From an uncultured Spirochaetales bacterium (GTDB lineage Bacteria > Spirochaetota > Spirochaetia > Sphaerochaetales > Sphaerochaetaceae), in the NCBI GenBank assembly GCA_949282255.1, contig CASDPA010000001.1, positions 124,001 through 188,000 of the forward strand: a DNA stretch of 64,000 nucleotides, in the 5' to 3' direction. Made by a program: the position numbers and the translations under genes. Under the pieces are notes generated by a model. That model saw only the letters and a program-made list of their open reading frames with translations. It searched no databases and was not told the DNA's origin. Positions 2,286-63,131 of this stretch are shown piece after piece; position 1 is the first letter of the stretch, and every line of letters starts with the position of its first letter.

Positions 2286-2996
2286 CTACCTCCACATCCA
2301 ATAGGAAAGGCCTTTGGCCTGATGCAACCCGAGGCTGGCCTGAAGACGTATGCTCGCCGTGTTCGAAACGTACACGTTGCAAAACGGCACACAGCCGTCA
2401 CAAAGCCTCAAGTTGATGAGGTGGGACAAGAGGAACGTACCGATCCCCCTCCTTCTGAAAGGCGGGAACACCTCGAGCATCCCCATCGAGCCCTCCTTGT
2501 GGAAGCCGGCGAACCCCATCAGGGCCCCGCCGTCGTAGATTCCGGTCACATCCCCCCTTTCTATATCGTCCATGAGCTCCAGCCCGCCCTCATCCGAGCC
2601 GTCGCCGTAATATGCGGTATAGACGGGAAAGTCATCCCTGGTGAAAGTGCGGAAGTCATACGGCCCCTCCTGCTTCCTTGCGCCATGATAGCTGAAAAGA
2701 AAGCACGGCTCCTCGAATGAATACCCTTTTGCGGAGAAAACCCTGAAAAGCTCCTCGTCATGTACGTCGATGAGACGGGCATCGGAGGGGATCGCGTCCA
2801 CCACCGGGCCGATGTCGGAGGAGAAGGATGCGGCGAATACGGTTCCACTGCAATGTCTGAGCACGACTCCTGCCTCGGAAAGATGCAGCAAGGCACAATC
2901 CTCATGCTCCAAAATATGTACCATATCCACGTGTGAAAGATCATCATCGGCAACCAATGCCTTTACAGCTTTTTTCTTATCCTTGTCAGTGTACAT
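2286..2996 (-). CDS. GNAT family N-acetyltransferase
   Basis: A 236-residue protein whose C-terminal third is a GNAT fold: beta strand GMLEVFPPF, acetyl-CoA pyrophosphate loop RRRGIGTF, and NVYVSNTASIRLQASLGL, the usual region after motif A where a bound N-terminus or amine is modified. The N-terminal half resembles no family I can name and may be a second degenerate GNAT-like domain. The start at 2996 is supported by a promoter whose minus-10 box sits seven bases upstream, implying a leaderless mRNA; no ribosome-binding site is visible. A longer reading would extend into the promoter. Substrate unknown. Confidence 0.8.
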   Translation of the reverse strand: MYTDKDKKKAVKALVADDDLSHVDMVHILEHEDCALLHLSEAGVVLRHCSGTVFAASFSSDIGPVVDAIPSDARLIDVHDEELFRVFSAKGYSFEEPCFLFSYHGARKQEGPYDFRTFTRDDFPVYTAYYGDGSDEGGLELMDDIERGDVTGIYDGGALMGFAGFHKEGSMGMLEVFPPFRRRGIGTFLLSHLINLRLCDGCVPFCNVYVSNTASIRLQASLGLHQAKGLSYWMWR

Positions 2997-3003
2997 ACAA
3001 TTG

Positions 3004-3032
3004 AATCTACATCCAATGGAATTTTTTTCCAA
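3004..3032 (-). promoter_or_regulatory. Promoter of GNAT gene, leaderless layout
   Basis: Minus-strand TTGGAA (3027-3032), 17-base spacer, TAGATT (3004-3009), then seven bases to the ATG at 2996. The predicted transcript begins at or next to the start codon. Confidence 0.5.
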
Positions 3033-4672: not shown

Positions 4673-6190
4673 ATGGCAAAAAAATTGATAAGAATCACAA
4701 GCCGCGATAATGTTGCAGTTGCGATTTCGCCTCTGGTGAAGGGAGATGTGCTCAACATCGACGACATAACCCTTACGATAACGACCGATGTGCCTGCAGG
4801 GCACAAGGTCGCACTCATGCCGATAAGACAGGGAGAGAAGATAATCAAATACGGCTACCCTATCGGCGCGGCAAAAGAGTATATAGAACAGGGATCCGCT
4901 GTTCACACCTTTAACGTGAAAACCCTTCTCAGCGAAGATGCTGCATATACCTACGATGAAGAGATGGCAAAAGAATGCCTGTTGGAAAACAAGGCCCATG
5001 CTGCACATTACAACGATCAGAACATCCCCAGAATAAATGCATATGAAAGAGCGGATGGACAAATCGGAATAAGAAATGCGTTATGGATCGTACCCACGGT
5101 AGGATGTGTCAACCAGATTTCAAAAAAACTTGAGGCCTGGGGCAACGAGAATCTGCAGGTTCCTGATGGTGTTCATGCATGGATCCATCCATTTGGATGC
5201 TCACAGATGGGAGAGGATCATGAGAAGACAAGGATCATTCTTGCGGATCTCGTGCATCATCCCAATGCAGGAGGTGTGCTCGTAATCGGGCTAGGCTGTG
5301 AAAACAATACCATGCCTGCATTCAAAGAGCTGGTTGGAGCTGTCGATGAAAGCCGTGTGAAATTCATGGTCTGCCAGGATTATGAAGATGAAATAGACGA
5401 AGGAAAAAAGCTTTTAAGCGAGATTGCGGAGCAGATGGCGGCGGACAAAAGAACCTCCGTTCCAATGAGTAGACTCGTCGTCGGCATGAAATGCGGCGGA
5501 AGCGATGGATTTTCCGGCATAACAGCAAATCCGCTTGTCGGAAGATTCACAAATGAGCTTGTTGCGATGGGAGGAACAGCGATACTCACTGAAGTACCGG
5601 AAATGTTTGGTGCCGAACAGATCCTGATGAACAGGGCTGAAAGCCGCGAGGTTTTCGACGATATCGTAAGCATGATCAACGGCTTTAAGCATTATTTCAC
5701 ATCGCACGGGCAGGTTGTTTACGAAAATCCCAGCCCTGGAAATAAGGCGGGCGGCATAACAACTCTCGAGGATAAGAGCCTTGGATGCGTGCAAAAAGGT
5801 GGAATCGCACCTGTATCTGCAGTGCTCAAATACGGACAGAGGGTATCGAAGAACGGCATGAATCTCATGACCGGCCCCGGCAACGACATTGTAAGCACGA
5901 CAGTGCAGACTGCGGCAGGAGCACATATGATTCTTTTCACCACAGGACGGGGCACACCTCTTGGAGCACCGGTTCCAACGGTGAAAATCGCAACAAACAG
6001 CATGCTTGCTGAGAAAAAATCCAATTGGATAGATTTCAATGCAGGTGCTATGCTTATAGAAGATCCGGCAAAAGTAACCGACCGCTTCATTAATTTCGTC
6101 ATCGAAATTGCAAACGGCGAGAAGAAAACGAGAAATGAAGAAAACGGTTATATGGAAATCTCCCTATTCAAGGACGGTGTAATACTATGA
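4673..6190 (+). CDS. uxaA: Altronate dehydratase
   Basis: Dehydrates D-altronate to 2-keto-3-deoxygluconate (KDG). The 505-residue product has both parts of full-length UxaA: an N-terminal SAF-type domain ending near residue 100 (with DVPAGHKVAL and KYGYPIGAA) and a C-terminal catalytic domain with VPTVGCVNQ, HPFGCSQMGEDH, GLGCENN, VGMKCGGSDGFSGITANP and TTGRGTPLGAPVPTVK. The conserved Cys and His residues suit an iron- or manganese-dependent dehydratase. The 4673 ATG is eight bases from GAGG; an ATG at 4667 overlaps the uxaB stop and is the alternative. Translation is probably coupled to uxaB. Confidence 0.95.
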   Translation: MAKKLIRITSRDNVAVAISPLVKGDVLNIDDITLTITTDVPAGHKVALMPIRQGEKIIKYGYPIGAAKEYIEQGSAVHTFNVKTLLSEDAAYTYDEEMAKECLLENKAHAAHYNDQNIPRINAYERADGQIGIRNALWIVPTVGCVNQISKKLEAWGNENLQVPDGVHAWIHPFGCSQMGEDHEKTRIILADLVHHPNAGGVLVIGLGCENNTMPAFKELVGAVDESRVKFMVCQDYEDEIDEGKKLLSEIAEQMAADKRTSVPMSRLVVGMKCGGSDGFSGITANPLVGRFTNELVAMGGTAILTEVPEMFGAEQILMNRAESREVFDDIVSMINGFKHYFTSHGQVVYENPSPGNKAGGITTLEDKSLGCVQKGGIAPVSAVLKYGQRVSKNGMNLMTGPGNDIVSTTVQTAAGAHMILFTTGRGTPLGAPVPTVKIATNSMLAEKKSNWIDFNAGAMLIEDPAKVTDRFINFVIEIANGEKKTRNEENGYMEISLFKDGVIL

Positions 6191-15163: not shown

Positions 15164-16845
15164 CACAACTCCAACAACAGCTTCACCGTGGCAACGGTTC
15201 CTCCAGACTCGGGAGACGAATAAGAAAGGCCGCAATCCTCCCCGTATCCGAGCTTCAGCCTTTCATTTATGTTCTTCACCCCTACTCCGGTCATATTACC
15301 TTTGAAATGGGAAACCTCATCAAAGATATGGTCCATTTTCTCCTTTGAAATCCCAACGCCGTCGTCTGTCACGGTTATGTAAAGATGCTTTTCATCCCTA
15401 TACGCATCAAGGGTTATAGTGCCCTCTCCTCCTTTCGGTTCTATACCATGGAAAATTGCATTCTCAACCAGCGGCTGAAGGGTGAATTTCTGGATGCGGT
15501 AACATTTTAGATCCTCGGGAATGTTATCCACAATCTCATATATTCCCATATATCGTACCTGCTGGATGAGATCGTAATCATGCAAAAGGGCAAGCTCCTC
15601 TTTGAGCATGATATGGTCTTGGGTACCTTTTGCCATGTTTTTCAGCAGATTGGAAAGCCCTCTGGACATGGCCGCAATCCCATCGGCCTTCTGCACTTCG
15701 GCCAGATAATGGATCGATTCGAGGGTGTTATAAAGAAAATGAGGATTGACCTGCATCTGAAGCATAAGCAATTCCGTGTTCTTTTTCTCTTCGAAAAGCT
15801 TTTCATTCCTTTTGAGCAGATTACTGATCGAAAGGCTCATGGCATTGACCGTATGCCCGATACGCGATATCTCGTCACTTCCTTTTTCTATACTCTCATC
15901 CACCGTTCCATAATTGTTTGTCACAGTAAGATACCTTATATGCCTTACCAGCCTGTCCGTTGGCCTAGTGACCATCCTCGTAAACAGCGAGGCCAAGAAA
16001 ATAAAGAGGAAAGAGGCTGCAACCATTATGATCAAAAACATTGTCAGCCCATATGAGGAGGCAAGGGAAAACTGTTTTCTCTCAACAAACATCCTGGCGC
16101 AGATGCCATCGATTGAAAACGGTATGTCGTTAGAAGTGAAGGAGGCGCCATAAAAGCTGTCCTCTATCATTTCAGGCAGAACCCAGGAATCCGATACTAT
16201 GAAAGTTTTTCCTCCCAGGCTGTCTGTTATCAGGGAATCGAACATCGATGTGTCCAATTCCGCATAGATCCATCCGTCCGGCACACCCACAACCCTGCCA
16301 TATGCGACAACAGCATCCTCATACGGTGCATTGAGCGTGGTTGAAAATAAAATCTTAACTATCGCCCCTCCTGCAAGCTTAAGCTCCCTGAACTCTTTTC
16401 TCTCCTCTATCAACTGAACATCCGCAAGATTACCATACCGGGATTTCGCATACTCGAAGAAAACACCGTTTCCATTGAAAACAACCATCTTGTTGACATA
16501 TTCCCACAAGGGGGAAGCGGACAGGTATGTACTTAAACGGGATTGTGCGGCCAATACCTTCTGCTTTGTTTCCTTTGTTTGCGGATAAGAGGATTCCAAA
16601 GCAGCCTTTACCGTACTATCCTGGCTGGCCCAGGCAACGGCTGTAACGAGCTCGGAAAAGACAGAGTCGATTTTCTCCACTTCAGCATCTATCCATTGCG
16701 TATTTATCCTGTCCACTTGTTCATAAACAATTTCGTTCATATATGAAAACAGAATGAACAGGGATGGTATACCTATAGCCATAAAACAGAATAAGGTGCA
16801 AAACAAAATCTTTCCCTTAAGTGTTGTTCTCCCAGATCTACCCAT
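15163..16845 (-). CDS. YesM-like sensor histidine kinase
   Basis: Membrane sensor of 560 residues. One membrane helix lies near residues 12-33, then an extracellular sensor region of about 230 residues, a second helix (LTMFLIIMVAASFLFIFLAS) and a HAMP segment (TRPTDRLVRHI). The His_kinase domain has phospho-His in MQVNPHFLYNTLESIHYL, and the ATPase domain has LQPLVENAIFHGIEP, DDGVGIS and GVGVKNINERL. The ATG at 16845 has no ribosome site, but TATAAT ends eight bases before it, so a leaderless mRNA is possible. A TTG at 16896 would add 17 hydrophobic residues and is the alternative start. Confidence 0.9.
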   Translation of the reverse strand: MGRSGRTTLKGKILFCTLFCFMAIGIPSLFILFSYMNEIVYEQVDRINTQWIDAEVEKIDSVFSELVTAVAWASQDSTVKAALESSYPQTKETKQKVLAAQSRLSTYLSASPLWEYVNKMVVFNGNGVFFEYAKSRYGNLADVQLIEERKEFRELKLAGGAIVKILFSTTLNAPYEDAVVAYGRVVGVPDGWIYAELDTSMFDSLITDSLGGKTFIVSDSWVLPEMIEDSFYGASFTSNDIPFSIDGICARMFVERKQFSLASSYGLTMFLIIMVAASFLFIFLASLFTRMVTRPTDRLVRHIRYLTVTNNYGTVDESIEKGSDEISRIGHTVNAMSLSISNLLKRNEKLFEEKKNTELLMLQMQVNPHFLYNTLESIHYLAEVQKADGIAAMSRGLSNLLKNMAKGTQDHIMLKEELALLHDYDLIQQVRYMGIYEIVDNIPEDLKCYRIQKFTLQPLVENAIFHGIEPKGGEGTITLDAYRDEKHLYITVTDDGVGISKEKMDHIFDEVSHFKGNMTGVGVKNINERLKLGYGEDCGLSYSSPESGGTVATVKLLLEL

Positions 16846-16852
16846 GGCTAAG

Positions 16853-16858
16853 ATTATA
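16853..16858 (-). promoter_or_regulatory. Minus-10 box before YesM-like kinase
   Basis: TATAAT on the minus strand, seven bases before the ATG. No clear minus-35 box is seen in the A/T-rich stretch behind it; TTGGTA-N19-TATTAT slightly upstream is an alternative promoter. Confidence 0.35.
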
Positions 16859-29715: not shown

Positions 29716-29805
29716 AGCTTTCCTCCGTCCGATTATCATAGCTCAAGAAGAAGGAGTGCGCAACAAAACCTTGAAAACTTGGGCCAAGACATATAAGCTT
29801 TCGAT

Positions 29806-30747
29806 ATGCTTCTTAATTTTTTCAGTGCATCCTTCACTTGGATAATGCTATTCATACTTCTTTTGAACATGCAGCAGAGGAAGTATCCATATTCGGCAAA
29901 AAAAAGGCGTGCAGTCCTCTTATTGGCCGCACTATATCTGACCGTCTACATGATACTGATTGTTTTCAATACGGCAAAGCTGCCCTCTTGGACGCAGTGG
30001 CTGGCACTTGCAATCGGTGTGGTCCTTCTTGTGATTTTCCGCAAGGCGTGTTTTCCCTTCAAGAGAAAATGTGTCGAATGCGGGAAAAAACTCACTTTCG
30101 ATTATTTCATCGGCAATGACGAGAACCTTTGCGAGGACTGTTTTTATAAAAAGCATCCTGAGCTGAAAAAGAAAAAACAGAATCAGAGCATGAAAAAGGA
30201 GGATATTATCGACTCCTTCAAGGATGCAAAGAAAATCGAAGAAATCAAATGGGGCCTTTGGGAACCGGACGAAAGATGCGTCCTCACATACATAATCGAC
30301 AGGGCAGAAAGGAAAATCCTGCTTATTGAAAAACTGAGAGGAATGGGAACAGGACTTCTGAACGGGCCTGGAGGACATATCGAGCTTGAAGAGACCGCGA
30401 TGGAGGCCGCAATCAGGGAAACAAAGGAAGAAACAGGACTTGATGTCTGCAATCTTGAAGAAAGAGGCATATTGCGTTTCCAATTCACAGACGGTCTCAA
30501 GATGATAGGCTATGTATTCTTCACTGACAGCTATTCTGGAACCCTGTTGGAAAGGACCGATGAAACGGTTCCGGCATGGCATGACCTTGATGATATCGAT
30601 TACAGCCGAATGTGGGAGGATGACAAGATGTGGCTGCCAAGTGCTATGGAAGGAAAGCATTTTGAAGGCTGGTTCATCTTCGACGGGGAGACCTTGCTGG
30701 ACGGAAAAGTGGAATACGAAGAAGAAACCGACGAAGAAAATGAATGA
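29806..30747 (+). CDS. Membrane-anchored zinc-knuckle Nudix hydrolase
   Basis: A 313-residue fusion. Residues 1-85 form two or three membrane segments (SASFTWIMLFILLL, AVLLLAALYLTVYMILIVF, WLALAIGVVLLVIF). Residues about 88-115 hold a Cys4 knuckle, CVECGKKL and CEDCFYK. Residues 150-290 are a Nudix domain with the complete box GGHIELEETAMEAAIRETKE plus ETGLDV, most like MutT/8-oxo-dGTP diphosphatases. It presumably hydrolyses a nucleoside diphosphate derivative at the cytoplasmic face. No ribosome site is seen; TATAAG ends eight bases before the ATG, hinting at a leaderless start. The next gene overlaps it by eight bases. Substrate unknown. Confidence 0.85.
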   Translation: MLLNFFSASFTWIMLFILLLNMQQRKYPYSAKKRRAVLLLAALYLTVYMILIVFNTAKLPSWTQWLALAIGVVLLVIFRKACFPFKRKCVECGKKLTFDYFIGNDENLCEDCFYKKHPELKKKKQNQSMKKEDIIDSFKDAKKIEEIKWGLWEPDERCVLTYIIDRAERKILLIEKLRGMGTGLLNGPGGHIELEETAMEAAIRETKEETGLDVCNLEERGILRFQFTDGLKMIGYVFFTDSYSGTLLERTDETVPAWHDLDDIDYSRMWEDDKMWLPSAMEGKHFEGWFIFDGETLLDGKVEYEEETDEENE

Positions 30748-32203: not shown

Positions 32204-33556
32204 TCAGTCGATTTCCGTAATTTTATAACGCTTTTTCTTCAACAGGCTGTCCTCTTCCACTGTTTTTTCAAACAACGATTCCTTTTCGTCCACGGCATTC
32301 ACATATTTGATTGCCATGCTTATCGCTTCTTCCAAAGTTTTCAAGCTTATTGATTGGATTATATCCCCTTTGCTATGCGCCGGAGTCTCCACGCCGGGAG
32401 CCATGCAGGTGATCGTCGCAGAAGTTATGCCGTATTTCCTTGCACTTGATGCATCGGTTGCACCCGATAGCATATCCAGCCTGCCGATCTTAACAGCGTA
32501 TCCCATCGCTTTTGCCGTATCTCCCAGGACAACCGCAAGACTATCGTCCACAGCTCCCCTGTCCACAGCCTCCCTTGAGATGACCACAAGGTCCTCGCTC
32601 CTATAAAGACCGTCGACATTGATATTCTCCACTTTCCCTTCAAACCGGTTCTTCTTGTAATAATCCAATGACCCCTGCCTGCAGCATTCCTCCCCGTCGA
32701 AGGATACGAATACAAGGCGGACCGAATCGGGCCTGTTCTTTGAAAAATATTCGCTTAAGGCAAGGCAAACTCCCACTCCACTTAAATTGTCCCCGCATCC
32801 GGGAGAAAACGAAGAGGAATAGAAATTCCAGGATTTTACAAGAGACAATACCGAAAGCACCACAGAAGGAATGATTGCCAAAAATGGTAGAAAAGTCGGA
32901 ATATTCAGCCTCAGCATGATTCCTTTGGAAATCTCTTCAATCGTAAAAGCTGTGGAAATAAGCAGATTGTATATGATGCTTGCCATCGTAAAACCCAATG
33001 GACGCTTATCCTCGGCACGATTCTCAAGCCTTGCGCTATCAAGATGGGAAGAAAAAATCACGGTCCTCGATGCTTCCTTTCCTGCTTCCAAGACAGCTTC
33101 GACATTGTGCCCCGCATTCTTCACCATAAATCTTGAAAGCAGGCTGCGCCCCGCAACAATCTCCAAAAAAAACTCGATCAGAGACAATATTGAAACAAGG
33201 ATGGAAACATAGCCCAAGCCCATAAAGATAAGAAAGGATGACAAAATCATCAATGGTGGAATCACCTTGGTCCAGAAAGTGCCCAAAAGAGGATCTATCT
33301 TCACCGTGTCCATTCTGACGGAATCCGTAAAGCCCTCAAAAATGGACGCTATGTTGTTTGCGGCTCTCCTGGAAGATCTAGAAGCAGCTGGTCGCTCTCC
33401 TATCATGGAAAGCTTTTCAACATAAGCAAAGGCCTTTTTTGCCATCACTGCAGGACTAAGGGTATCATTTACATTGTATACCGTCTCCTTGACCTTTTCC
33501 TCTCTCTTTTTCTTTCCTTTCCCTAAAAATGGAAATTTTCCCTTCAAATCCCACAT
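32204..33556 (-). CDS. Membrane M28-family metallopeptidase
   Basis: A 450-residue zinc peptidase with membrane segments inserted in the fold. After a basic N-terminus come two hydrophobic stretches near residues 100-135, the metal-binding VIFSSHLDSARLE near 172, a further pair of hydrophobic segments about 195-250, then PGCGDNLSGVGVCLALSEYF with the bridging Asp, VSFDGEECCRQGS with the catalytic Glu, NVDGL and TPAHSKGD with the last zinc ligand. All zinc ligands expected for M28 aminopeptidases appear present. The ATG lacks a ribosome site, but an extended minus-10 box ends nine bases before it. Peptide substrate and membrane side are unknown. Confidence 0.88.
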   Translation of the reverse strand: MWDLKGKFPFLGKGKKKREEKVKETVYNVNDTLSPAVMAKKAFAYVEKLSMIGERPAASRSSRRAANNIASIFEGFTDSVRMDTVKIDPLLGTFWTKVIPPLMILSSFLIFMGLGYVSILVSILSLIEFFLEIVAGRSLLSRFMVKNAGHNVEAVLEAGKEASRTVIFSSHLDSARLENRAEDKRPLGFTMASIIYNLLISTAFTIEEISKGIMLRLNIPTFLPFLAIIPSVVLSVLSLVKSWNFYSSSFSPGCGDNLSGVGVCLALSEYFSKNRPDSVRLVFVSFDGEECCRQGSLDYYKKNRFEGKVENINVDGLYRSEDLVVISREAVDRGAVDDSLAVVLGDTAKAMGYAVKIGRLDMLSGATDASSARKYGITSATITCMAPGVETPAHSKGDIIQSISLKTLEEAISMAIKYVNAVDEKESLFEKTVEEDSLLKKKRYKITEID

Positions 33557-33564
33557 ACGAGGGA

Positions 33565-33573
33565 ATTCTAACA
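33565..33573 (-). promoter_or_regulatory. Extended minus-10 box of M28 peptidase gene, leaderless layout
   Basis: TGTTAGAAT on the minus strand matches an extended minus-10 element; eight bases separate it from the ATG at 33556. Confidence 0.5.
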
Positions 33574-44214: not shown

Positions 44215-45597
44215 TCAGAGACTGGCCTTAAGCTTGGCGCTGTCGGATGCAAGCTGGTCGATCCAATCCTGTACGCTCTTTGAACCATTCATCACGCTGT
44301 CCATTGTGAAACAGTAGGTCTGCTTCCAGTCGACACCTTCCGCACTGGCGGCGAGGAAGGAACCAACAAGAACTTTTGCCGATCCATCGTAATATCCGGC
44401 ATAACCGGCGACCGCACCTGCGTTCATACCGTTATCGACTGCGATCTTATCATAGCCCTTTGCGGGGACGAATGCACCGTTACCGTATTTTGCAATTATG
44501 GCAAGGCCTTCGTCTGAATACATGAAGAGGATGAAATCTTCTGCAAGTTCGGGTACTTTTGTATTGGCGTTGATCCAAATCTGCTCAACATTGACTGTAC
44601 CGTATCTCTCCCCTCCGTTGCTGAATGCGAGGAAAGGTGCCGATCCCCAATTGAATCCTGCAGGAGTGGTATCGGCCATCTCACCTTTCACCCAATCACC
44701 GTTTGTCATGAAAAGGGCCTTACCGTCGATGACTGCCTGCTGATTGTTTCTAAACCCATCGGTATTTGCGTTGCCTACGGTTGTCGGAAGAATATAATCC
44801 TTGATCCTTCCAAGATATTCGAATACCCTTTCAACTTCAGGATCGTTCCAAATCGGCTCATACGCAAAAGCTTCCTGCACTACTGCTTCTCCTGCACTTG
44901 CAGCAATTGAGGCGGGAATCAAAGTATCAAGATATCCAGCCGTCGGATAGGTGAAAAGATAAGGAGTATCCGGATTGGTCTTCCTTTCTTCGTTAAGAAT
45001 ATCGCCCAATGCGAAGAACTCATCCCAAGTGGAAGGCATCTCATATTTTCCATCCGTTTTCGCATCTTCGACACCATTTCCATTATTCTCATAGAAAAGG
45101 TCGGCATTGAAGAAAAGACCGTTAGAAGAGAAGAAAAGAGGAAGCATGTAATTGGTGTCATCACCAGGATAAGGATTGGTTACGCCGTTGCCCATGATGG
45201 AAGAGAGGATCTTATCTCCAAGCGTCACATCGGAATTATAAACATTCTTTCCAAGAAGACCGGTAAGATCTCTAAGCGCATGAGAAGAGATCATTGCTTC
45301 TGTAAGCTGAGCCTCTCTGCCGGTAGCAAGGTACACCACATCCGGACCTGCGCCTGCCTGTATCTGCGGCATAATCGTATTCTCGACCTGAGCTTCGATT
45401 GTAAGCTGAACATCAACTCCGGGATGGGAAGCCTCAAAAGCCTTCTCAAGCTCCTTCCAATATTCTTCACCATATGCGCCCCTAAGTCCTGCAACTTTGA
45501 GAACTTGAGTTCCGCTCTCGCTGGATCCGCCGGCAAAAACCATGCTCGCGGCAACGAGAAGGATTAGAGCAACTGAAATAAATTTCCTGATTTTCAT
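44215..45597 (-). CDS. CUT1 ABC transporter substrate-binding protein for galacto-N-biose
   Basis: A 460-residue secreted binding protein. Signal peptide MKIRKFISVALILLVAASMVFA is followed by GGSSESG, with no lipobox. The mature part has LKVAGLRGAYGEEYWKELEK, GAGPDVVYLATGREAQL and ALFMTNGDWVKGEM of the SBP_bac_1 fold. Of two adjacent ATGs, the second lies six bases from GGAGG and is preferred. The operon order with two permeases and GH112 indicates galacto-N-biose or lacto-N-biose binding. It is divergent from the AraC-type regulator. Confidence 0.92.
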   Translation of the reverse strand: MKIRKFISVALILLVAASMVFAGGSSESGTQVLKVAGLRGAYGEEYWKELEKAFEASHPGVDVQLTIEAQVENTIMPQIQAGAGPDVVYLATGREAQLTEAMISSHALRDLTGLLGKNVYNSDVTLGDKILSSIMGNGVTNPYPGDDTNYMLPLFFSSNGLFFNADLFYENNGNGVEDAKTDGKYEMPSTWDEFFALGDILNEERKTNPDTPYLFTYPTAGYLDTLIPASIAASAGEAVVQEAFAYEPIWNDPEVERVFEYLGRIKDYILPTTVGNANTDGFRNNQQAVIDGKALFMTNGDWVKGEMADTTPAGFNWGSAPFLAFSNGGERYGTVNVEQIWINANTKVPELAEDFILFMYSDEGLAIIAKYGNGAFVPAKGYDKIAVDNGMNAGAVAGYAGYYDGSAKVLVGSFLAASAEGVDWKQTYCFTMDSVMNGSKSVQDWIDQLASDSAKLKASL

Positions 45598-45691
45598 CAT
45601 AAACCTCCAAGTAGGAATACAACCTACACTGTCAGTTAACTATGGTTTTTTTCTTCCAACAATCAATAAATTGCTCTCTTTTTTATATTTC

Positions 45692-45720
45692 TTGCTATTT
45701 GACCAAAAGAATCCGATAAT
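45692..45720 (+). promoter_or_regulatory. Promoter of AraC-type gene, leaderless layout
   Basis: TTGCTA (45692-45697), 17-base spacer, GATAAT (45715-45720), then six bases to ATG 45727. No ribosome-binding site exists, so the mRNA probably begins at the start codon. Confidence 0.6.
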
Positions 45721-45726
45721 TTTGAT

Positions 45727-46590
45727 ATGAGCACTACAAGATTTGAGATTTCTCGTGGAAATAAAGAATTAACGCCTGAATTCAGGTATATTACCCATGC
45801 AAAATACGGAGCCGACTGGTCAAGTGTCATGCATTCGCACGCAATAACAGAAATGCTTTATATAACAGGAGGAAAAGGAAGCGTACTTACACGTACAGGC
45901 ATATTTGATGTGAATTGCGGGGATTTTCTTATCATCCCACCACACTTCATGCACACTGAAAAATCATCACCTCAACAGCAAATGGAATATTACGTAATCG
46001 GAATAGAAAATATCTCCTATTTGGAGGAGAATATGGATGACTTCAACCCAATAGTTCCGTTAAGCAACAGCGGCGAAGCTGTGCGTTCCTGCATCGATCA
46101 GATGTACAGAGAGATACAGAAAAAAGATGAAGGCTATGAAATGATGGTGAAAAGTCTCCTCCTACATTTAACGGTACTTTTGATGCGAAGGAAAAAAATA
46201 GACATAGACATAGAAAAAACCGATTCCATAAGAAGCGACATCGCAGCTTTGAAAACATATATAGACGGCCATTACAGTGAGAATATCACGCTTGAAAAAC
46301 TTGCGAAGATGTCGTTTTTGAGCAAATATCATCTTTCAAGGGAATTCAGAAAAGAAGTGGGGACCTCTCCTATCTGCTACATGATAGAAAAGAGAATAAC
46401 CGAATCAAAAAGCTTGTTGGCCTCAACAGAAATGAGCATATCCGACATATCTTCCAGTGTCGGATTCTCCTCCTCAAGTTATTTTTCACAGCGTTTCAAA
46501 CTCATAACGGGAACAACCCCTCTTGATTTCAGGAGGGCAAGTCTCGGGGAAAAACTCTTGCCCTCGCACAAAATAGTAAATAAGCTGTAA
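45727..46590 (+). CDS. AraC family transcriptional regulator
   Basis: A 287-residue regulator. Its N-terminal cupin-like ligand domain (about 15-110) has DWSSVMHSHAITEMLYITGG and GDFLIIPPHFMHTEKS. Its C-terminal AraC DNA-binding domain (about 180-280) has ITLEKLAKMSFLSKYHLSREF and ISDISSSVGFSSSSYFSQRF. It is divergent from the galacto-N-biose transport operon and immediately upstream of the sulfatase gene, so it probably activates both in response to a sugar. The gene lacks a Shine-Dalgarno sequence and has a leaderless-type promoter. Confidence 0.93.
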   Translation: MSTTRFEISRGNKELTPEFRYITHAKYGADWSSVMHSHAITEMLYITGGKGSVLTRTGIFDVNCGDFLIIPPHFMHTEKSSPQQQMEYYVIGIENISYLEENMDDFNPIVPLSNSGEAVRSCIDQMYREIQKKDEGYEMMVKSLLLHLTVLLMRRKKIDIDIEKTDSIRSDIAALKTYIDGHYSENITLEKLAKMSFLSKYHLSREFRKEVGTSPICYMIEKRITESKSLLASTEMSISDISSSVGFSSSSYFSQRFKLITGTTPLDFRRASLGEKLLPSHKIVNKL

Positions 46591-46592
46591 TT

Positions 46593-48032
46593 ATGAAGAA
46601 AAAGCCCAACATACTGGTCATAATGGCCGATCAGTTCAGAGGAGATGCCCTTTCATGCATGGGGCATCCGGATGTGAAGACACCGTACCTCGATTCGCTG
46701 GCATCAAGGGGTGTGCTTTTCGAAAATGCCTACTCGGCCTGCCCAAGCTGCATAGCGGCACGGGCTGGTTTCCATACAGGATTGAAACCGGAAAACCATA
46801 AAAAAGTCGGTTATGAAGATGGAACAGCATGGAAATATCCACATACGATAGCTTCCGAGATTAAAAAGGCCGGTTATTATGCGCAGGCTGCCGGTAAGAT
46901 GCATGTGCATCCGTTAAGGAATCTGATAGGCTTCGATCATGTGGACCTTCACGACGGTTATCTTCATGCGGCGAGGTTTCAAAGCGTAAGCTACAAAGAA
47001 TCACAGAAAAACGCCGATGATTATTACCATTGGCTCAGATGCACTCTCGGAGCGGATGCTGATGTAACGGATACCGGATTAGAATGCAACAGCTGGATAT
47101 CCAGACCTTGGTGCTATGATGAAAAATACCATCCCACGAACTGGGTGACCGATAAAGCTGTAGATTTTTTAAGGTGGAAGGATCCTGATAAGCCGTTTTT
47201 TCTTTACACCTCATACCTGAAACCCCACCCGCCTCTCGATCCTCCTGAATATTATTACAACATGTATATGGATATGGATCTCAGGATGCCGGCCATCGGC
47301 AACTGGGAAGATGAGGGAGCATTTGTAAATTCACCGGTACTTTTCGATTCAAAGACGGGGCCGAAGGATAAATTTGAAATAAAACAGATGTTAGCTGGCT
47401 ATTATGGATTGATCACCCATCTGGATCATCAGATCGGAAAACTAATCCAGGCTCTGGTTGAAGCGGAGGAATATGATAATACGATCATAATCTTCACCGC
47501 AGACCACGGAGAGGAACTAGGAGACCACCATCTCTTTAGAAAATCACGCGCATACGAAGGATCAAGCCATATACCATTGATAATAAGCGCTCCAGAGTCA
47601 TTAATCCCCGGCATAAAAAGAGGTTCGAAATGCAAGGCCGTCGTCGAGCTGATGGATATCATGCCGACCATACTGGATCTTGCAGGAGCAAAATGCCCGG
47701 ATGTCGACGGAGTCAGCCTGAAAGATCTGCTCATTAATCCGGAGCAAAAAGTCAGGGATTATCTTCATGGTGAACATTCCTACGGTCCTCTCTCATCGCA
47801 TTGGATAGTAACCGAAAGCGATAAATACATTTGGAATTCAGATTCCGGAAAAGAAGAATATTTCAATTTGGACGTGGATCCGAGGGAAATGAACGAATGC
47901 TCGGCTTCCAACACTGCTAGAACCACGCAACTGAGAAACATCCTCATAAAAGAGTTGAAAAATAGAAAGGAGGGCTTTGTCAAGGACGGCTGTCTTATAG
48001 CAGGGGTACCCTATCCTCCATATATTAAGTAA
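46593..48032 (+). CDS. Cytoplasmic sulfatase (formylglycine type, Cys-type site)
   Basis: A 479-residue alkaline phosphatase-superfamily sulfatase without signal peptide. It begins PNILVIMADQFRGDAL with metal-binding Asp13, and the activation site is CIAAR with Cys53 as the residue expected to become formylglycine, here with Ala in place of the usual Pro. GKMHVHPLRN, HLDHQIGKLIQAL and IIFTADHGEELGDHH supply further metal and sulfate ligands. The gene begins two bases after the AraC gene and has no ribosome site, so translation is probably coupled. Next to the GH112 operon, a sulfated HexNAc or galactose of mucin is a plausible substrate. It needs an anaerobic maturase not seen here. Confidence 0.92.
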   Translation: MKKKPNILVIMADQFRGDALSCMGHPDVKTPYLDSLASRGVLFENAYSACPSCIAARAGFHTGLKPENHKKVGYEDGTAWKYPHTIASEIKKAGYYAQAAGKMHVHPLRNLIGFDHVDLHDGYLHAARFQSVSYKESQKNADDYYHWLRCTLGADADVTDTGLECNSWISRPWCYDEKYHPTNWVTDKAVDFLRWKDPDKPFFLYTSYLKPHPPLDPPEYYYNMYMDMDLRMPAIGNWEDEGAFVNSPVLFDSKTGPKDKFEIKQMLAGYYGLITHLDHQIGKLIQALVEAEEYDNTIIIFTADHGEELGDHHLFRKSRAYEGSSHIPLIISAPESLIPGIKRGSKCKAVVELMDIMPTILDLAGAKCPDVDGVSLKDLLINPEQKVRDYLHGEHSYGPLSSHWIVTESDKYIWNSDSGKEEYFNLDVDPREMNECSASNTARTTQLRNILIKELKNRKEGFVKDGCLIAGVPYPPYIK

Positions 48033-55818: not shown

Positions 55819-56763
55819 TTACCTATTGCAAGAAGGCGTACGGAAAACATATACGGCAGAGGGAATCAAGTCCACATCAAAATCCTTTCCATCCATGTAT
55901 GCCACAATTTCACCATCGGCATGGGAAGCGACTTCTGCACTCAAAGACCTTATTCTGACGGATTTCGTCCTATACCCACAGAAAAACTTCTTATGCTTAA
56001 GATGGTGCCCCAAAAGGAACCATATAACCGCAAGAAGCAGGGAAAACCTGGTAAAAGGACGTCTTGTATACATCAGATCGAAATAACCGTCGTCCACTTT
56101 TGCCTGAGGAGCCAGGATGAAAGCGGAGCCCATCCTCCGCCCTATGCAAACCGATATCTGCTGCGTAGAGATGTCCACCGACTCCTCCTCCGTCTCCAAA
56201 TGTATGGAATAAGGTTTTGGAGGAGAAAAAAGTATTTTTATAAAACCCAGGACATAACTGGCCATTCCGTTGACCCGTTTGAATTCCATCGCCTTGAAAT
56301 TCACAAGCGGTTCAAATCCATAGCCGTTTCCATTTAAAAAATATTGCTTGCTGTTTTTTTCCAGCCGTCGGACAACTCCGACATCTACGGGAGCGCCCGA
56401 ACCGGAAAGGATAAGATCAACAGCCTTGACAATATCATTCGGGACACCAATAGCCCAGGCATAGTCATTTCCTCTTCCGACAGGAATGATACCCAGTTTC
56501 GGTTTCAAAGGATTGTCATAACGCATCATTCCGTTTATGACCTCGTTCACACAACCATCTCCACCAGCGGCCACAATCGTATCATATCCTTCCCTGGAGG
56601 CGGAAAAAGCCAGTTCCTCCGCGTGCCCCTGTGCCTTTGTGAAGGCAATGAAGACTTTTCTTCCCGCTTCTTTGAAAAGTCTTTCTATCTCAGCAGCTTT
56701 TCCACCTGCCCTGCCCTTGCTCGCTTTGGGGTTGATGATTACAAAAATATCCTTATCACCCAT
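55819..56763 (-). CDS. Diacylglycerol kinase-family lipid kinase (YegS/DgkB type)
   Basis: A 314-residue cytoplasmic lipid kinase. The DAGK catalytic domain has IFVIINPKASKGRAGG, the nucleotide-binding VAAGGDGCVNEVINGMM near residue 70 and IIPVGRGNDYAWAIGVP near 97. The C-terminal domain has FLNGNGYGFEPLVN, VDDGYFDLMYTRR and ASHADGEIVAYMDG. It probably phosphorylates diacylglycerol to phosphatidate. The ATG at 56763 is chosen because TTGCTA-N17-TAACAT ends nine bases before it; an ATG seven codons upstream lacks a ribosome site. It is divergent from the MATE gene. Confidence 0.92.
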   Translation of the reverse strand: MGDKDIFVIINPKASKGRAGGKAAEIERLFKEAGRKVFIAFTKAQGHAEELAFSASREGYDTIVAAGGDGCVNEVINGMMRYDNPLKPKLGIIPVGRGNDYAWAIGVPNDIVKAVDLILSGSGAPVDVGVVRRLEKNSKQYFLNGNGYGFEPLVNFKAMEFKRVNGMASYVLGFIKILFSPPKPYSIHLETEEESVDISTQQISVCIGRRMGSAFILAPQAKVDDGYFDLMYTRRPFTRFSLLLAVIWFLLGHHLKHKKFFCGYRTKSVRIRSLSAEVASHADGEIVAYMDGKDFDVDLIPSAVYVFRTPSCNR

Positions 56764-56771
56764 ATTATGGA

Positions 56772-56800
56772 ATGTTAACTTCATTACGGACCATTAGCAA
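56772..56800 (-). promoter_or_regulatory. Promoter of lipid kinase gene, leaderless layout
   Basis: Minus-strand TTGCTA (56795-56800), 17-base spacer, TAACAT (56772-56777), eight bases before ATG 56763. The minus-35 hexamer is identical to that of the AraC gene at 45692. Confidence 0.45.
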
Positions 56801-56813
56801 TAAAAAGAGGGTG

Positions 56814-56842
56814 TTGACCTAACATATATGTTCTGCTAGACC
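56814..56842 (+). promoter_or_regulatory. Promoter of MATE gene, leaderless layout
   Basis: TTGACC (56814-56819), 17-base spacer, extended TGC-TAGACC (minus-10 at 56837-56842), eight bases before ATG 56851. No Shine-Dalgarno sequence is present. Confidence 0.5.
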
Positions 56843-56850
56843 CTATTAGC

Positions 56851-58194
56851 ATGAAGAACGGAAATTTCTACGGAAGGCTTGCCTACATCTGCATACCCAT
56901 AATGGTTCAAAATTTGATCTCATCCTCACTCTCCTTCGTTGACACCCTGATGATCGGACAGATCGGGCAGAATGAAATCGCGGCCGTAGGAATAGCCAAC
57001 CAGGTATTCTTCCTCATAAGCTTATTTTTCTTCGGCATAGCAAGCGGAACCGGTATATTCCTAAGCCAGTTCCATGGCTCCGGTGAAAAAGAAAAGATGA
57101 AAAGCACGATGGCCTTTGCTTGCACAATATGTGTCATGGGGGCCCTGCTTATTTCAATTTATTCCTTCTTTTTCCCTGAATCCATACTTGGCATCTTCAC
57201 TTCAGATTCACTAGTGACCACACCGGGAAAAGATTATCTGAAATGGGTTGCAATAAGCTATATCTTCAGTGCGGTAAGCACGACACTCTCAATTGGCTTC
57301 AGGGCGATAAACAAAGCACATTGGCCTATGGTCGTAACAATGATTTCGCTGACAACCAATGCCATTGGCAACTATCTGCTCATCTTCGGAATCGGCCCAT
57401 TCCCAGAAATGGGAGTATCCGGAGCTGCTTTGGCAACAACGCTGTCACGTATGTTGGAAATGCTTATGCTCCTTTACCTGACATGGACAAAGAAACAGGA
57501 TTTCGCTTTCAGAAGAAAGGATTTCTCATGGGATCGGGGCTTCATAGGCTCCTTCACAACCACAAGCATACCTGTTGTTTTCAACGAAGTCTTCTGGGCT
57601 CTCGGCATGATCCTTTACAAGGTGGCATACTCAAAACTCGGCACTGAGGCGCTGGCTACCATAAACATAACAGAAAGTATTGCCAACTTCTTCTTCATTG
57701 CCATGATGGGAATCGGAAACGGCACAACCATACTACTGGGAAATATGCTTGGTGCAGGAAGAAAGGAAGAGGCAAGAAAAAATGCACGCCTAATCCTCCG
57801 CCTTGCAATAGTCATCGGAGTATTGATGTTTGTCTTCGAATATCTAAGTGCACCGCTGTTCGCCTCCTGGTTCAACGTTTCAAAACAGGTCGCACTCACA
57901 GCCATAGCCTGCCTGAGGCTGAATGCGGTATTGCAACCAATAAAGAGCCTCAACATGGTCATAATAGTGGGGATCCTTCGTTCCGGAGGAGATACCAAAG
58001 CCGCAATGGCCATAGAAATGATCGGCTTATATTTAGTCGGTGTTCCTTTGTCTTTCTTCTTCGTTCTCGCTCTATCATGGCCTCTTTACCTGGTATATAT
58101 CGCAACAGGATTTGAAGAGCTTGTAAAGCTGCTCCTCGGCTTTACAAGATACAAGAAATACAAATGGGCCAAAGTACTTACAAACAAAGCCTGA
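56851..58194 (+). CDS. MATE family multidrug/metabolite exporter
   Basis: A 447-residue inner-membrane antiporter with twelve predicted helices in two related halves. First half: IPIMVQNLISSSLSFVDTLM, AAVGIANQVFFLISLFFFGI and GTGIFLSQFHGSGE. Second half: SIPVVFNEVFWALGMILYKV, ATINITESIANFFFIAMMGI and NGTTILLGNMLGAGRKEEAR. MATE proteins export cationic drugs or metabolites using Na+ or H+ gradients; the substrate is unknown. The mRNA looks leaderless. nagA starts 21 bases downstream with its own extended minus-10 box. Confidence 0.95.
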   Translation: MKNGNFYGRLAYICIPIMVQNLISSSLSFVDTLMIGQIGQNEIAAVGIANQVFFLISLFFFGIASGTGIFLSQFHGSGEKEKMKSTMAFACTICVMGALLISIYSFFFPESILGIFTSDSLVTTPGKDYLKWVAISYIFSAVSTTLSIGFRAINKAHWPMVVTMISLTTNAIGNYLLIFGIGPFPEMGVSGAALATTLSRMLEMLMLLYLTWTKKQDFAFRRKDFSWDRGFIGSFTTTSIPVVFNEVFWALGMILYKVAYSKLGTEALATINITESIANFFFIAMMGIGNGTTILLGNMLGAGRKEEARKNARLILRLAIVIGVLMFVFEYLSAPLFASWFNVSKQVALTAIACLRLNAVLQPIKSLNMVIIVGILRSGGDTKAAMAIEMIGLYLVGVPLSFFFVLALSWPLYLVYIATGFEELVKLLLGFTRYKKYKWAKVLTNKA

Positions 58195-58200
58195 GTATTG

Positions 58201-58209
58201 TGTTATACT
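58201..58209 (+). promoter_or_regulatory. Extended minus-10 promoter of nagA, leaderless layout
   Basis: TGT-TATACT is an extended minus-10 box ending six bases before ATG 58216. There is no ribosome site, so the transcript likely starts at the start codon. Confidence 0.55.
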
Positions 58210-58215
58210 TTTGAC

Positions 58216-59316
58216 ATGGAAACAAAAACTTTCAAAGGAATTCTTGCTTATACTCCGAAAGGAGCGGAATATCTTGACATCACCGTCAAGAACGGACGTA
58301 TTTTCTCTTTAGAGAAATCTGACGAAAAAAGTTCTCTTATCGCCGTTCCTGGCTTCATAGACACCCATATCCACGGCTTCTGCGGCTACGGTACCGAAGA
58401 CTGCAGTGTGGATTCCATCCTGAAAATGAGTGAAAACCTGATCCGCTTCGGCATCACATCTTTTTTCCCGACCATATATACTGATATGGAAGAAAAAATG
58501 ATAAAGGGCATCAAGGCCTGCTATGAAGCAAAGGGCAAAGAAAAAGGAGCATCGATAAGAGGCATACACATTGAAGGGCCTTTCATTTCACCAAAGCGCA
58601 TTGGCGCCCAGAATCCGCTTGGAAGAAAAGATCCGTCTGTGGTGCTTTTCAACAAATATCTTGATGCCGCACCCGGGCTGGTCAAAGCCATGACAATAGC
58701 ACCGGAACTGGCAGGAGTGGAAGAAGTCGCAGCCAGGGCAAAAGAGGAAGGGGTCGTCCTTCTATGCGGGCATACCGATGCAAACTATAATGAGGTCATG
58801 AACGGCTATAAATGCGGGGTGTGCCATGCAACGCATCTTTTCAATGCAATGAAGGGATTGCATCACAGGGAACCGGGTACGGTTGGAGCGGTGCTTTCCT
58901 CCGATATGACTGCAGAGATAATCGCAGACGGCCTTCATGTGCACCCTGTTGTCGCCAAGTATGTAATCGACACAAAAACCCCTGACAAGGTATGTGCCAT
59001 CACAGATTCCCTCAAACCAACCGAACAGGAGAATGGACCTTTCACAGCAAACGATGTAGAAGTTGAAATCCTTGACGGCCTCTGGGTCACGAAAGGCAGG
59101 CCGGAATTGATACAAGGCTCATCTTTGACAATGTACAAAGGTTTCAAGAATCTGATCAGCTGGGGACTCAGCGTGGAAGATGCCGTAAAACTGACGTCCT
59201 CCACTCCGGCAAGAATATACTCACTTGACGACGTAGGTTCGATAGAGGAAGGGAAAACAGCGGATATTGTCATAATGGATAAGAACTATGACATCAAATC
59301 CGTCATAAAAGGATAA
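58216..59316 (+). CDS. nagA: N-acetylglucosamine-6-phosphate deacetylase
   Basis: Amidohydrolase-fold enzyme of 366 residues that removes acetate from GlcNAc-6-P (or GalNAc-6-P). Metal and substrate residues are seen in GFIDTHIHGFCGYGTEDC near residue 45, IRGIHIEGPFISPKRIGAQN near 115, LLCGHTDANYNEV, THLFNAMKGLHHREPG, IIADGLHVHPVVAKY and the catalytic Asp in ICAITDSLKP-type VCAITDSLKPT. It begins with an extended minus-10 promoter and a probable leaderless start. It would process the HexNAc released by the GH112 route after phosphorylation. nagB is not in the window. Confidence 0.94.
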   Translation: METKTFKGILAYTPKGAEYLDITVKNGRIFSLEKSDEKSSLIAVPGFIDTHIHGFCGYGTEDCSVDSILKMSENLIRFGITSFFPTIYTDMEEKMIKGIKACYEAKGKEKGASIRGIHIEGPFISPKRIGAQNPLGRKDPSVVLFNKYLDAAPGLVKAMTIAPELAGVEEVAARAKEEGVVLLCGHTDANYNEVMNGYKCGVCHATHLFNAMKGLHHREPGTVGAVLSSDMTAEIIADGLHVHPVVAKYVIDTKTPDKVCAITDSLKPTEQENGPFTANDVEVEILDGLWVTKGRPELIQGSSLTMYKGFKNLISWGLSVEDAVKLTSSTPARIYSLDDVGSIEEGKTADIVIMDKNYDIKSVIKG

Positions 59317-61470: not shown

Positions 61471-61920
61471 ATGCAGGAAACCAGAGTACAGAAGCTCACA
61501 CTTGCCCACCCTCTGACCTATAAAAGGGAAAAATTCAGCTTCAACGAGCTGATCAGAGTCATGTTGTCGGAACCGACAGGAACCGACAGCTTCATCAAAT
61601 TAAAAATAGGGTATAACGACAGCGGTGCTGTATTCGAATATCTTGACTCAGGAAAAAAAACTCCTCTGACAAAGGAAGAAAAAGATCGGATAGAAGCAGG
61701 GTTCAGCCCGATAATTAGGACTACTGACAATACTGAAATTCCAGCTGCCACATACTATTTCGAACAATTTCCCGATCTTTCCGAAGAAAGCCTTCTGACA
61801 ATCACTCTAGCAGGCCTGATGAGCCGTAAGAGCGATAGCGATGTGATTTTCCTGCGCCTTTACAAGGAAAACTCTCTGGAACTCATTATGCAAGGTTTCC
61901 GCCCTTGCACCTCAAGGTGA
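61471..61920 (+). CDS. Hypothetical protein, 149 residues
   Basis: Starts two bases after the amidotransferase gene and ends before traB; reading frame and spacing support a real gene. No signal peptide, membrane segment or known motif is visible. Segments include LTLAHPLTYKREKFSFNELI, FIKLKIGYNDSGAVFEYLDS and ITLAGLMSRKSDSDVIFLRL, giving a mixed alpha/beta, rather charged protein. The duplication EPTGTDSF in DNA (ggaaccgacag repeated) is minor. Function cannot be assigned; neighbours suggest only co-transcription with pepD and the amidotransferase. Confidence 0.75.
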   Translation: MQETRVQKLTLAHPLTYKREKFSFNELIRVMLSEPTGTDSFIKLKIGYNDSGAVFEYLDSGKKTPLTKEEKDRIEAGFSPIIRTTDNTEIPAATYYFEQFPDLSEESLLTITLAGLMSRKSDSDVIFLRLYKENSLELIMQGFRPCTSR

Positions 61921-61928
61921 TTGTTGGT

Positions 61929-61934
61929 TATATT
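61929..61934 (+). promoter_or_regulatory. Minus-10 box of traB-like gene, leaderless layout
   Basis: TATATT lies six bases before ATG 61941; TTGCAC (61905-61910) with an 18-base spacer is a possible minus-35 box. No Shine-Dalgarno sequence is present. Confidence 0.45.
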
Positions 61935-61940
61935 CATTTT

Positions 61941-63131
61941 ATGCAAGTTGAGAAAATAAGCGATTCATTGCACAGGTTGACTTTTTCAAATGGGGATGAA
62001 GTTGTTCTGATCGGAACAGCCCATGTCTCCTCTGGAAGTGTGGAGCTTGTGCAAGAAACGATAGAAAAGGAAAATCCGGACAGGATATGCATTGAACTGG
62101 ACAATTCCAGGATGAAGAGCAAAAGCGAAGGCAGTTCCTGGAAAGATATGGATATAAGAAAGGTCATAAGGGATGGAAAAGGATTCTTTCTGCTGGCAAA
62201 TACCGCTCTGGCATCTTTCCAAAAACGGATGGGAAACCAGACTGGAATCACACCCGGGGATGAAATTCTGAAGGCGGCATCGATAGCAAAAGAAAAAAAC
62301 ATTCCACTCTCTCTGTGCGACAGGGAGATCCAGACCACATTCAAAAGAGCTTGGGCAAAAAGCAGCATTTGGAACAAATGCAAGCTTCTTGCAACCCTGA
62401 TTTCAGCTGCATTCTCCAATGAAACACTGACTGAAGAGGAGCTTGAAGAGCTAAAGAAGCAGGACACATTGGAAAGCATGATGAATGAAATTGCAAAGGA
62501 ACTGCCGACTGTAAAGGAAGTCCTGATTGATGAAAGAGACCGTTATCTTGCCACAAGTGTCTACCAGGCAGAAGGGAAAAAGAAGGTTGTGGTTATCGGA
62601 GCCGGACATACAAACGGAATTATCAAGACCCTTGGAAAACTTGAAAGCGGAGAAATCGGAACCGATATAAATGAAATCAATTCCATTCCCAAGGCAAAAC
62701 CATGGGGAAAGATCGCATCATACATCATCCCCTCTCTCATAATACTTCTGGTAATACTGGGAATAGTAAATACAGGCTGGGATCAAGGTATAAGGATGTT
62801 CTTATATTGGATGGCCGCGTGTGCGCTTTCGACGGGCATATTTTCAATCCTTGCACTAGCTCATCCACTGAATATTCTCCTTAGTGCTGTCACCGCACCA
62901 TTTTTTGCTTTGAATCCTGTACTTGGGATAGGTATGCTTGCAGGTGTTTTGGAGGCCACCTTCCGAAAACCGAAAGTAAGGGATTTTGAAGGAATAAACG
63001 ATGATGCGACATCCCTAAAAGGATGGTATAAGAATAGAATCCTGCATGCTCTTTTAGTGTTTTTGCTTTCAAGTATAGGAAGCATGATTGGAACATTCAT
63101 CGCTTTCCCAATGTTGATATCCCATTTATAA
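61941..63131 (+). CDS. TraB/PrgY family membrane protein
   Basis: A 396-residue member of the TraB/PrgY (GumN/TIKI-like) family. The N-terminal EreA/TIKI-type domain has VVLIGTAHVSSGSVELVQET near residue 22, RICIELDNSRM, PLSLCDREIQTTFKRAW near 122, and KVVVIGAGHTNGI near 215, with the paired GTAHVS and GAGHTNG motifs that hold the presumed metal site. Three or four C-terminal membrane segments follow (YIIPSLIILLVILGIV, FLYWMAACALSTGIFSILAL, ILHALLVFLLSSIGSMIGTF). PrgY degrades or blocks a peptide pheromone; the role here is unknown. The start at 61941 fits a leaderless promoter. Confidence 0.92.
   Translation: MQVEKISDSLHRLTFSNGDEVVLIGTAHVSSGSVELVQETIEKENPDRICIELDNSRMKSKSEGSSWKDMDIRKVIRDGKGFFLLANTALASFQKRMGNQTGITPGDEILKAASIAKEKNIPLSLCDREIQTTFKRAWAKSSIWNKCKLLATLISAAFSNETLTEEELEELKKQDTLESMMNEIAKELPTVKEVLIDERDRYLATSVYQAEGKKKVVVIGAGHTNGIIKTLGKLESGEIGTDINEINSIPKAKPWGKIASYIIPSLIILLVILGIVNTGWDQGIRMFLYWMAACALSTGIFSILALAHPLNILLSAVTAPFFALNPVLGIGMLAGVLEATFRKPKVRDFEGINDDATSLKGWYKNRILHALLVFLLSSIGSMIGTFIAFPMLISHL

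Follow-up and report, generated by a model that had tools for sequence, protein, structure and literature searches.

Leaderless initiation is already known in bacteria, spirochaetes included. In Leptospira interrogans, dRNA-seq placed the transcript start of about 440 genes no more than 10 nt from the start codon, and for about half of these no more than 2 nt from it, and the authors reported no common promoter motif besides that of sigma-54 (PMC5243855). A high frequency of leaderless transcripts has also been stated for Borrelia burgdorferi (PMC10618245). Zheng et al. (2011) predicted TA-led genes in 6 of 18 spirochaete genomes, with a mean of 3.9% of genes and a maximum of 6.9% (PMC3160421). 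The genome analysed here resembles Leptospira as a spirochaete with apparent leaderless mRNAs, and Borrelia as one rich in them. It differs in that the starts, which were mapped in the first and are known from transcripts in the second, are here computed from sequence, and in that a clear sigma-70-type promoter is present, unlike in Leptospira. With the TA-led genes of Zheng et al. it shares a TANNNT hexamer some 12 bp upstream of the start codon and the lack of a Shine-Dalgarno (SD) sequence (PMC3160421). As in Deinococcus deserti and Mycobacterium, the -10 abuts the start codon of first genes, with SD-led genes alongside; those organisms are G+C-rich, whereas here the -10 is TATAAT-like and accompanied by TTG at 17 bases or by TGn.

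The initial annotation of this DNA had called the layout more familiar from actinobacteria and Deinococcus than from spirochaetes. That is fair as a matter of emphasis and misleading as a claim of novelty, given Leptospira (PMC5243855), Borrelia (PMC10618245) and the 6 of 18 genomes with predicted TA-led genes (PMC3160421). The value of the present case is quantitative and comparative, in that leaderless starts appear to be frequent, and also conserved, within an uncultured genus. A search of the open-access literature found nothing on this genus, nor on leaderless mRNA starts in Treponema.

The 64,000-nucleotide stretch analysed (the window) is C1:124001-188000 of a 2.35-Mb draft genome in 51 contigs, in which no match to a 16S rRNA gene was found. 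Positional statistics were taken over 464 kb, about a fifth of the genome, consisting of the window and 400 kb more from the same genome. Genes were called by a dicodon model from coding content alone, blind to ribosome sites and promoters, yielding 421 usable genes: 230 first genes (divergent from the upstream gene, or at least 50 bases from it) and 191 internal ones. Dinucleotide shuffles provided the null for TANNNT counts, and E. coli K-12 (negative control) and Deinococcus deserti plasmid 1 (positive control) were passed through the same pipeline. The comparison set included 23 other members of the genus; the remainder share only the class, none being from the same family or order. Abundance was estimated with a two-block promoter model whose EM training drew on SD-less genes from G105 and four genus members, the source genome being left out; its fit is to promoters of mid G+C, and it gives values that are too low for G+C-rich genomes. 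A homologue of ribosomal protein S1 was found that covers nearly the full model span, at 564 bits just under the curated cut-off of 577, so that there is no obvious loss of the machinery for leadered translation. The rpoB gene of the source genome (G000, C4:101320-104046) has the lowest score among the sampled class members (1065.5 versus 1195-1343 bits) with a match longer than most of theirs, which suggests a diverged or inserted region.

Eight genes of the window had been singled out as having a -10-like hexamer 6-8 bases before an ATG. All eight hexamers and distances could be confirmed, as could the -35 at exactly 17 bases in four cases (araC, GNAT, lipid kinase and MATE). An SD in -18 to -3 is absent from all eight, and Pfam backs their names. 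The araC-type regulator (45692-45729, forward strand; Pfam AraC) has TTGCTA at 45692-45697, a 17-base spacer and GATAAT at 45715-45720, 6 bases before the ATG at 45727 (promoter score 4.4, no SD); the gene caller misplaced this start, putting it at 45982. The MATE transporter (56814-56853, forward; Pfam MatE; score 2.7) has TTGACC at 56814-56819, a 17-base spacer and the extended -10 TGC-TAGACC at 56834-56842, 8 bases before the ATG at 56851. The YegS-like lipid kinase (56761-56800, reverse; Pfam DAGK/YegS; score 3.7) carries TTGCTA at 56800-56795, a spacer of 17 and TAACAT at 56777-56772, 8 bases before the ATG at 56763. An upstream ATG at 56784 was considered as its start and rejected, as ortholog N-termini favour 56763. 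The nagA-like amidohydrolase (58201-58218, forward; Pfam Amidohydro_1; score 3.8) has the extended -10 TGT-TATACT at 58201-58209, 6 bases before the ATG at 58216.

The traB gene (61905-61943, forward; Pfam TraB; score 5.5) has TTGCAC at 61905-61910, an 18-base spacer and TATATT at 61929-61934, 6 bases before the ATG at 61941. The other three lie on the reverse strand: the M28 peptidase (33554-33573; Pfam M28; score 4.5), with the extended -10 TGT-TAGAAT at 33573-33565, 8 bases before the ATG at 33556; the YesM-like histidine kinase (16843-16858; Pfam His_kinase; score 3.7), with TATAAT at 16858-16853, 7 bases before the ATG at 16845; and the GNAT acetyltransferase (2994-3032; Pfam GNAT), with TTGGAA at 3032-3027, a 17-base spacer and TAGATT at 3009-3004, 7 bases before the ATG at 2996. 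Assignments for single genes are uncertain, as the GNAT score of only 1.3, the lowest of the eight, illustrates. Two further forward-strand genes with Pfam support, both outside the initial list, have the same layout and a score of 4.4. In a NUDIX gene (29771-29808), TTGAAA at 29771-29776, a 17-base spacer and TAAGCT at 29794-29799 stand 6 bases before the ATG at 29806, and the ortholog in G136 has a promoter score of 3.3; in a sulfatase gene 3' of araC (46558-46595), TTGCCC at 46558-46563, a 17-base spacer and TAAGCT at 46581-46586 stand 6 bases before the ATG at 46593, and the ortholog in G139 scores 6.1.

The scan of -10 position in SD-less genes that had been proposed as a check was run over the 464 kb and gave a sharp peak at 6-8 bases. 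TANNNT lies 6-8 bases before the start in 45 of 134 SD-less first genes, against 12.1 (SD 3.0) in shuffled sequence (z = 11), with 25, 13 and 8 occurrences at 6, 7 and 8 bases and 0-9 at other distances. All SD-less genes together give 60 with a -10 in this position (34 at 6, 18 at 7 and 8 at 8). Only 2 of 233 SD-led genes have one (1/96 first, 1/137 internal), and in SD-led first genes TANNNT is scattered over 16-33 bases, as for short leaders. The same pipeline returned 0 of 32 in E. coli K-12 and 8 of 46, against 1.1 expected (z = 6.7), in D. deserti plasmid 1. A peak at 6-8 is also seen in the genus members G136 and G139 (z = 7.0 and 6.3), whereas two of the four members sampled beside the source genome, at 80 kb each, show peaks that are only weak and not significant (z = 1.6 and 1.3). 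De novo discovery of 9-mers with a flat position prior picked out a -35-like motif, peaking some 28-29 bases 5' of the start, in place of the -10, and was set aside.

Features that played no part in selecting the 60 genes agree with their being promoter-led. TTG at a 16-18 base spacer occurs in 35% of them versus 6% of all TANNNT occurrences in the sample, and an extended -10 TGn in 33% versus 7% in background; one or the other is present in 65%. The model, trained on other genomes, learnt a spacer of 17 in 73% of cases and a distance of 6 in 48% and 7 in 28%. The start codon is ATG in 57 of the 60, versus 99 of 128 other SD-less genes. A pyrimidine precedes the start codon in 30 of the 34 genes at distance 6 versus 68 of the 128 (p = 1.4e-4). 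RNA polymerase favours start sites with a purine at +1 following a pyrimidine at -1, and the excess therefore indicates the A of the ATG as +1. The genes show what marks the bacterial leaderless (TA-led) class, namely no SD, an excess of TANNNT over shuffles and an AUG start (for which the class rarely has GUG), together with the TTGACA-like -35 at 16-18 bases, or TGn, of a sigma-70-type promoter.

The reading that we consider highly probable is that sigma-70-type promoters are set so that transcription starts at the start codon of about a quarter of first genes, which would yield leaderless, SD-less mRNAs. Ordinary housekeeping-sigma promoters would start transcription at the A of the start codon or about 2 bases from it, the resulting mRNA would have neither 5' leader nor SD, and recognition of the 5'-terminal AUG would allow translation to begin; most operon-internal genes would use SD sites. 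We infer both the transcription start site and leaderless translation; +1 would fall on the A of the ATG because the modal -10 distance of 6 is the canonical spacing. A -10 at 6-8 bases could also give leaders of 1-3 nt, and genes of this class may be transcribed mainly from a second promoter further upstream.

The alternative that survives best keeps the -10s as real and places the starts a few bases upstream, so that the mRNAs would have very short leaders (1-9 nt) and be translated as other SD-less messages are. Genes with the -10 at 7, 8 or 9 bases are indeed seen (18 genes at 7, 8 at 8), and primary starts in Leptospira range over 0-10 nt (PMC5243855). However, the mode is exactly 6, and the pyrimidine before the ATG in 30 of 34 such genes is as expected if +1 is the A, which makes this alternative improbable. 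Far less credible is the idea that the start codons are misplaced and the true starts lie downstream behind ordinary leaders: some calls are wrong, as with araC at 45982, but the motif is in register with starts called from coding content alone, N-termini agree in 15 of 15 leaderless/leaderless pairs, and traB aligns from residue 1-2 in 24 genomes. A chance selection of fitting TANNNT-like hexamers before ATGs in an A+T-rich genome is refuted by the position peak in the sample: although TANNNT is common and counts before any ATG, made without gene calls, are too noisy to give a clear peak, the z = 11 peak in SD-less first genes vanishes in SD genes, shuffles and shifted starts.

Leaderless initiation as set out above had been claimed to be common for first genes, and the model bears this out as a prediction from sequence. 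In the 464 kb, the estimate for the leaderless class is 17% over all genes and 26% among first genes, common and not the rule, with shuffled upstream regions giving 0.2% and starts shifted 10 bases upstream 0.9%. Taken with the -35, TGn, the -1 pyrimidine and the orthologs, leaderless initiation is well supported by these statistics. The 17% contrasts with the spirochaete mean of 3.9% of Zheng et al., although the methods differ and the two are not directly comparable. Among genus members the share of first genes is 31% in G136, 34% in G139, 13% in G133 and 8% in G127, each of these two sampled over 80 kb. Similar values are reached in family f3 of the same class, with 27% in G019, which was outside the training set, and 29% in G105, which was in it. 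Families f44 (12%, shifted control 7) and f45 (15%) come next, and the other class families have 8 (f2), 4 (f5), 3 (f14), 3 (f10) and 7% (f21), with 0 in E. coli. In G070, a class member of 1.2 Mb and 29% G+C, the value of about 4% is close to the shifted control of 3%. D. deserti, leaderless-rich by mapping, obtains only 8% from this model fitted to mid-G+C promoters.

Conservation was followed in reciprocal best hits with agreeing N-termini, taken pairwise over five genomes, the source and four genus members. There are 15 leaderless/leaderless, 5 leaderless/SD, 9 leaderless/unclassified and 73 SD/SD pairs; about 3 leaderless/leaderless pairs would be expected among the 93 classed pairs under independence, a figure that serves only as a guide since pairs share genes. 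Of the 29 pairs with a leaderless member, 14 have a partner that is SD-led (5) or unclassified (9). The traB gene was found in all 24 genus genomes, the source included, with alignment from residue 1 or 2 in each. A -10 stands shortly before the homologous ATG in 21 of the 24: 19 by the model, plus L185, which has a low model score, and L199, where what looks like an SD is a GAGG lying 5' of a strong -10. In G139, G140 and G120 (loci L187, L186 and L188) traB is SD-led instead, possibly because it lies directly behind another gene, which would make these loci a naturally occurring change in how the gene is initiated. Among M28 orthologs of 30-35% identity, many have a TGCTATATT-like extended -10 located 6-10 bases before the ATG, and the leaderless layout of M28 is found in about half or more of the genus genomes. 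For the lipid kinase, 13 of 24 genomes have a leaderless-like layout.

The accompanying claim that operon-internal genes have normal ribosome sites holds for most of them: an SD is present in 137 of 191 internal genes (72%) versus 96 of 230 first genes (42%). However, 15 of the 54 SD-less internal genes have a -10 at 6-8 bases, among them nagA, only 21 bases past the MATE gene.

Divergent neighbours were also surveyed. Pairs scored as leaderless on both sides have gaps of only 46-87 bp (L018:2725-2772, 716-779 and 5507-5571; L020:3415-3498; L006:13427-13514; window 56763-56851). Since each promoter takes up about 36 bp from -35 to ATG, an overlap of the two is unavoidable at gaps of 46, 62 and 63 bp. 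The median divergent gap is 193 bp with no leaderless gene, 99 with one and 87 with two. The sample has 12 divergent leaderless/SD pairs; in the window, the apparently leaderless araC shares a 126-bp region (45600-45727) with a divergent SD-led gene at about 44215-45600, which has a strong SD (TTGGAGGTTT). The protein of this SD-led control (about 44218-45600) has no clear orthologs within the genus.

More broadly, leaderless initiation may be a long-conserved major mode in this spirochaete class, a view that we put forward tentatively, at slightly less than an even chance. It would serve about a quarter of transcription units in the genus and in family f3, be kept gene by gene over deep divergence, be switched to SD where a gene becomes operon-internal, and permit back-to-back pairs with overlapping promoters. 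Gene finders that depend on ribosome sites misplace leaderless starts. Promoter prediction would be unusually easy in such a genome, because the ATG fixes the position of the -10. Since most genus members have an apparently leaderless traB and a few an SD-led one, the lineage would also offer a test of how genes shift between leaderless and SD-led initiation.
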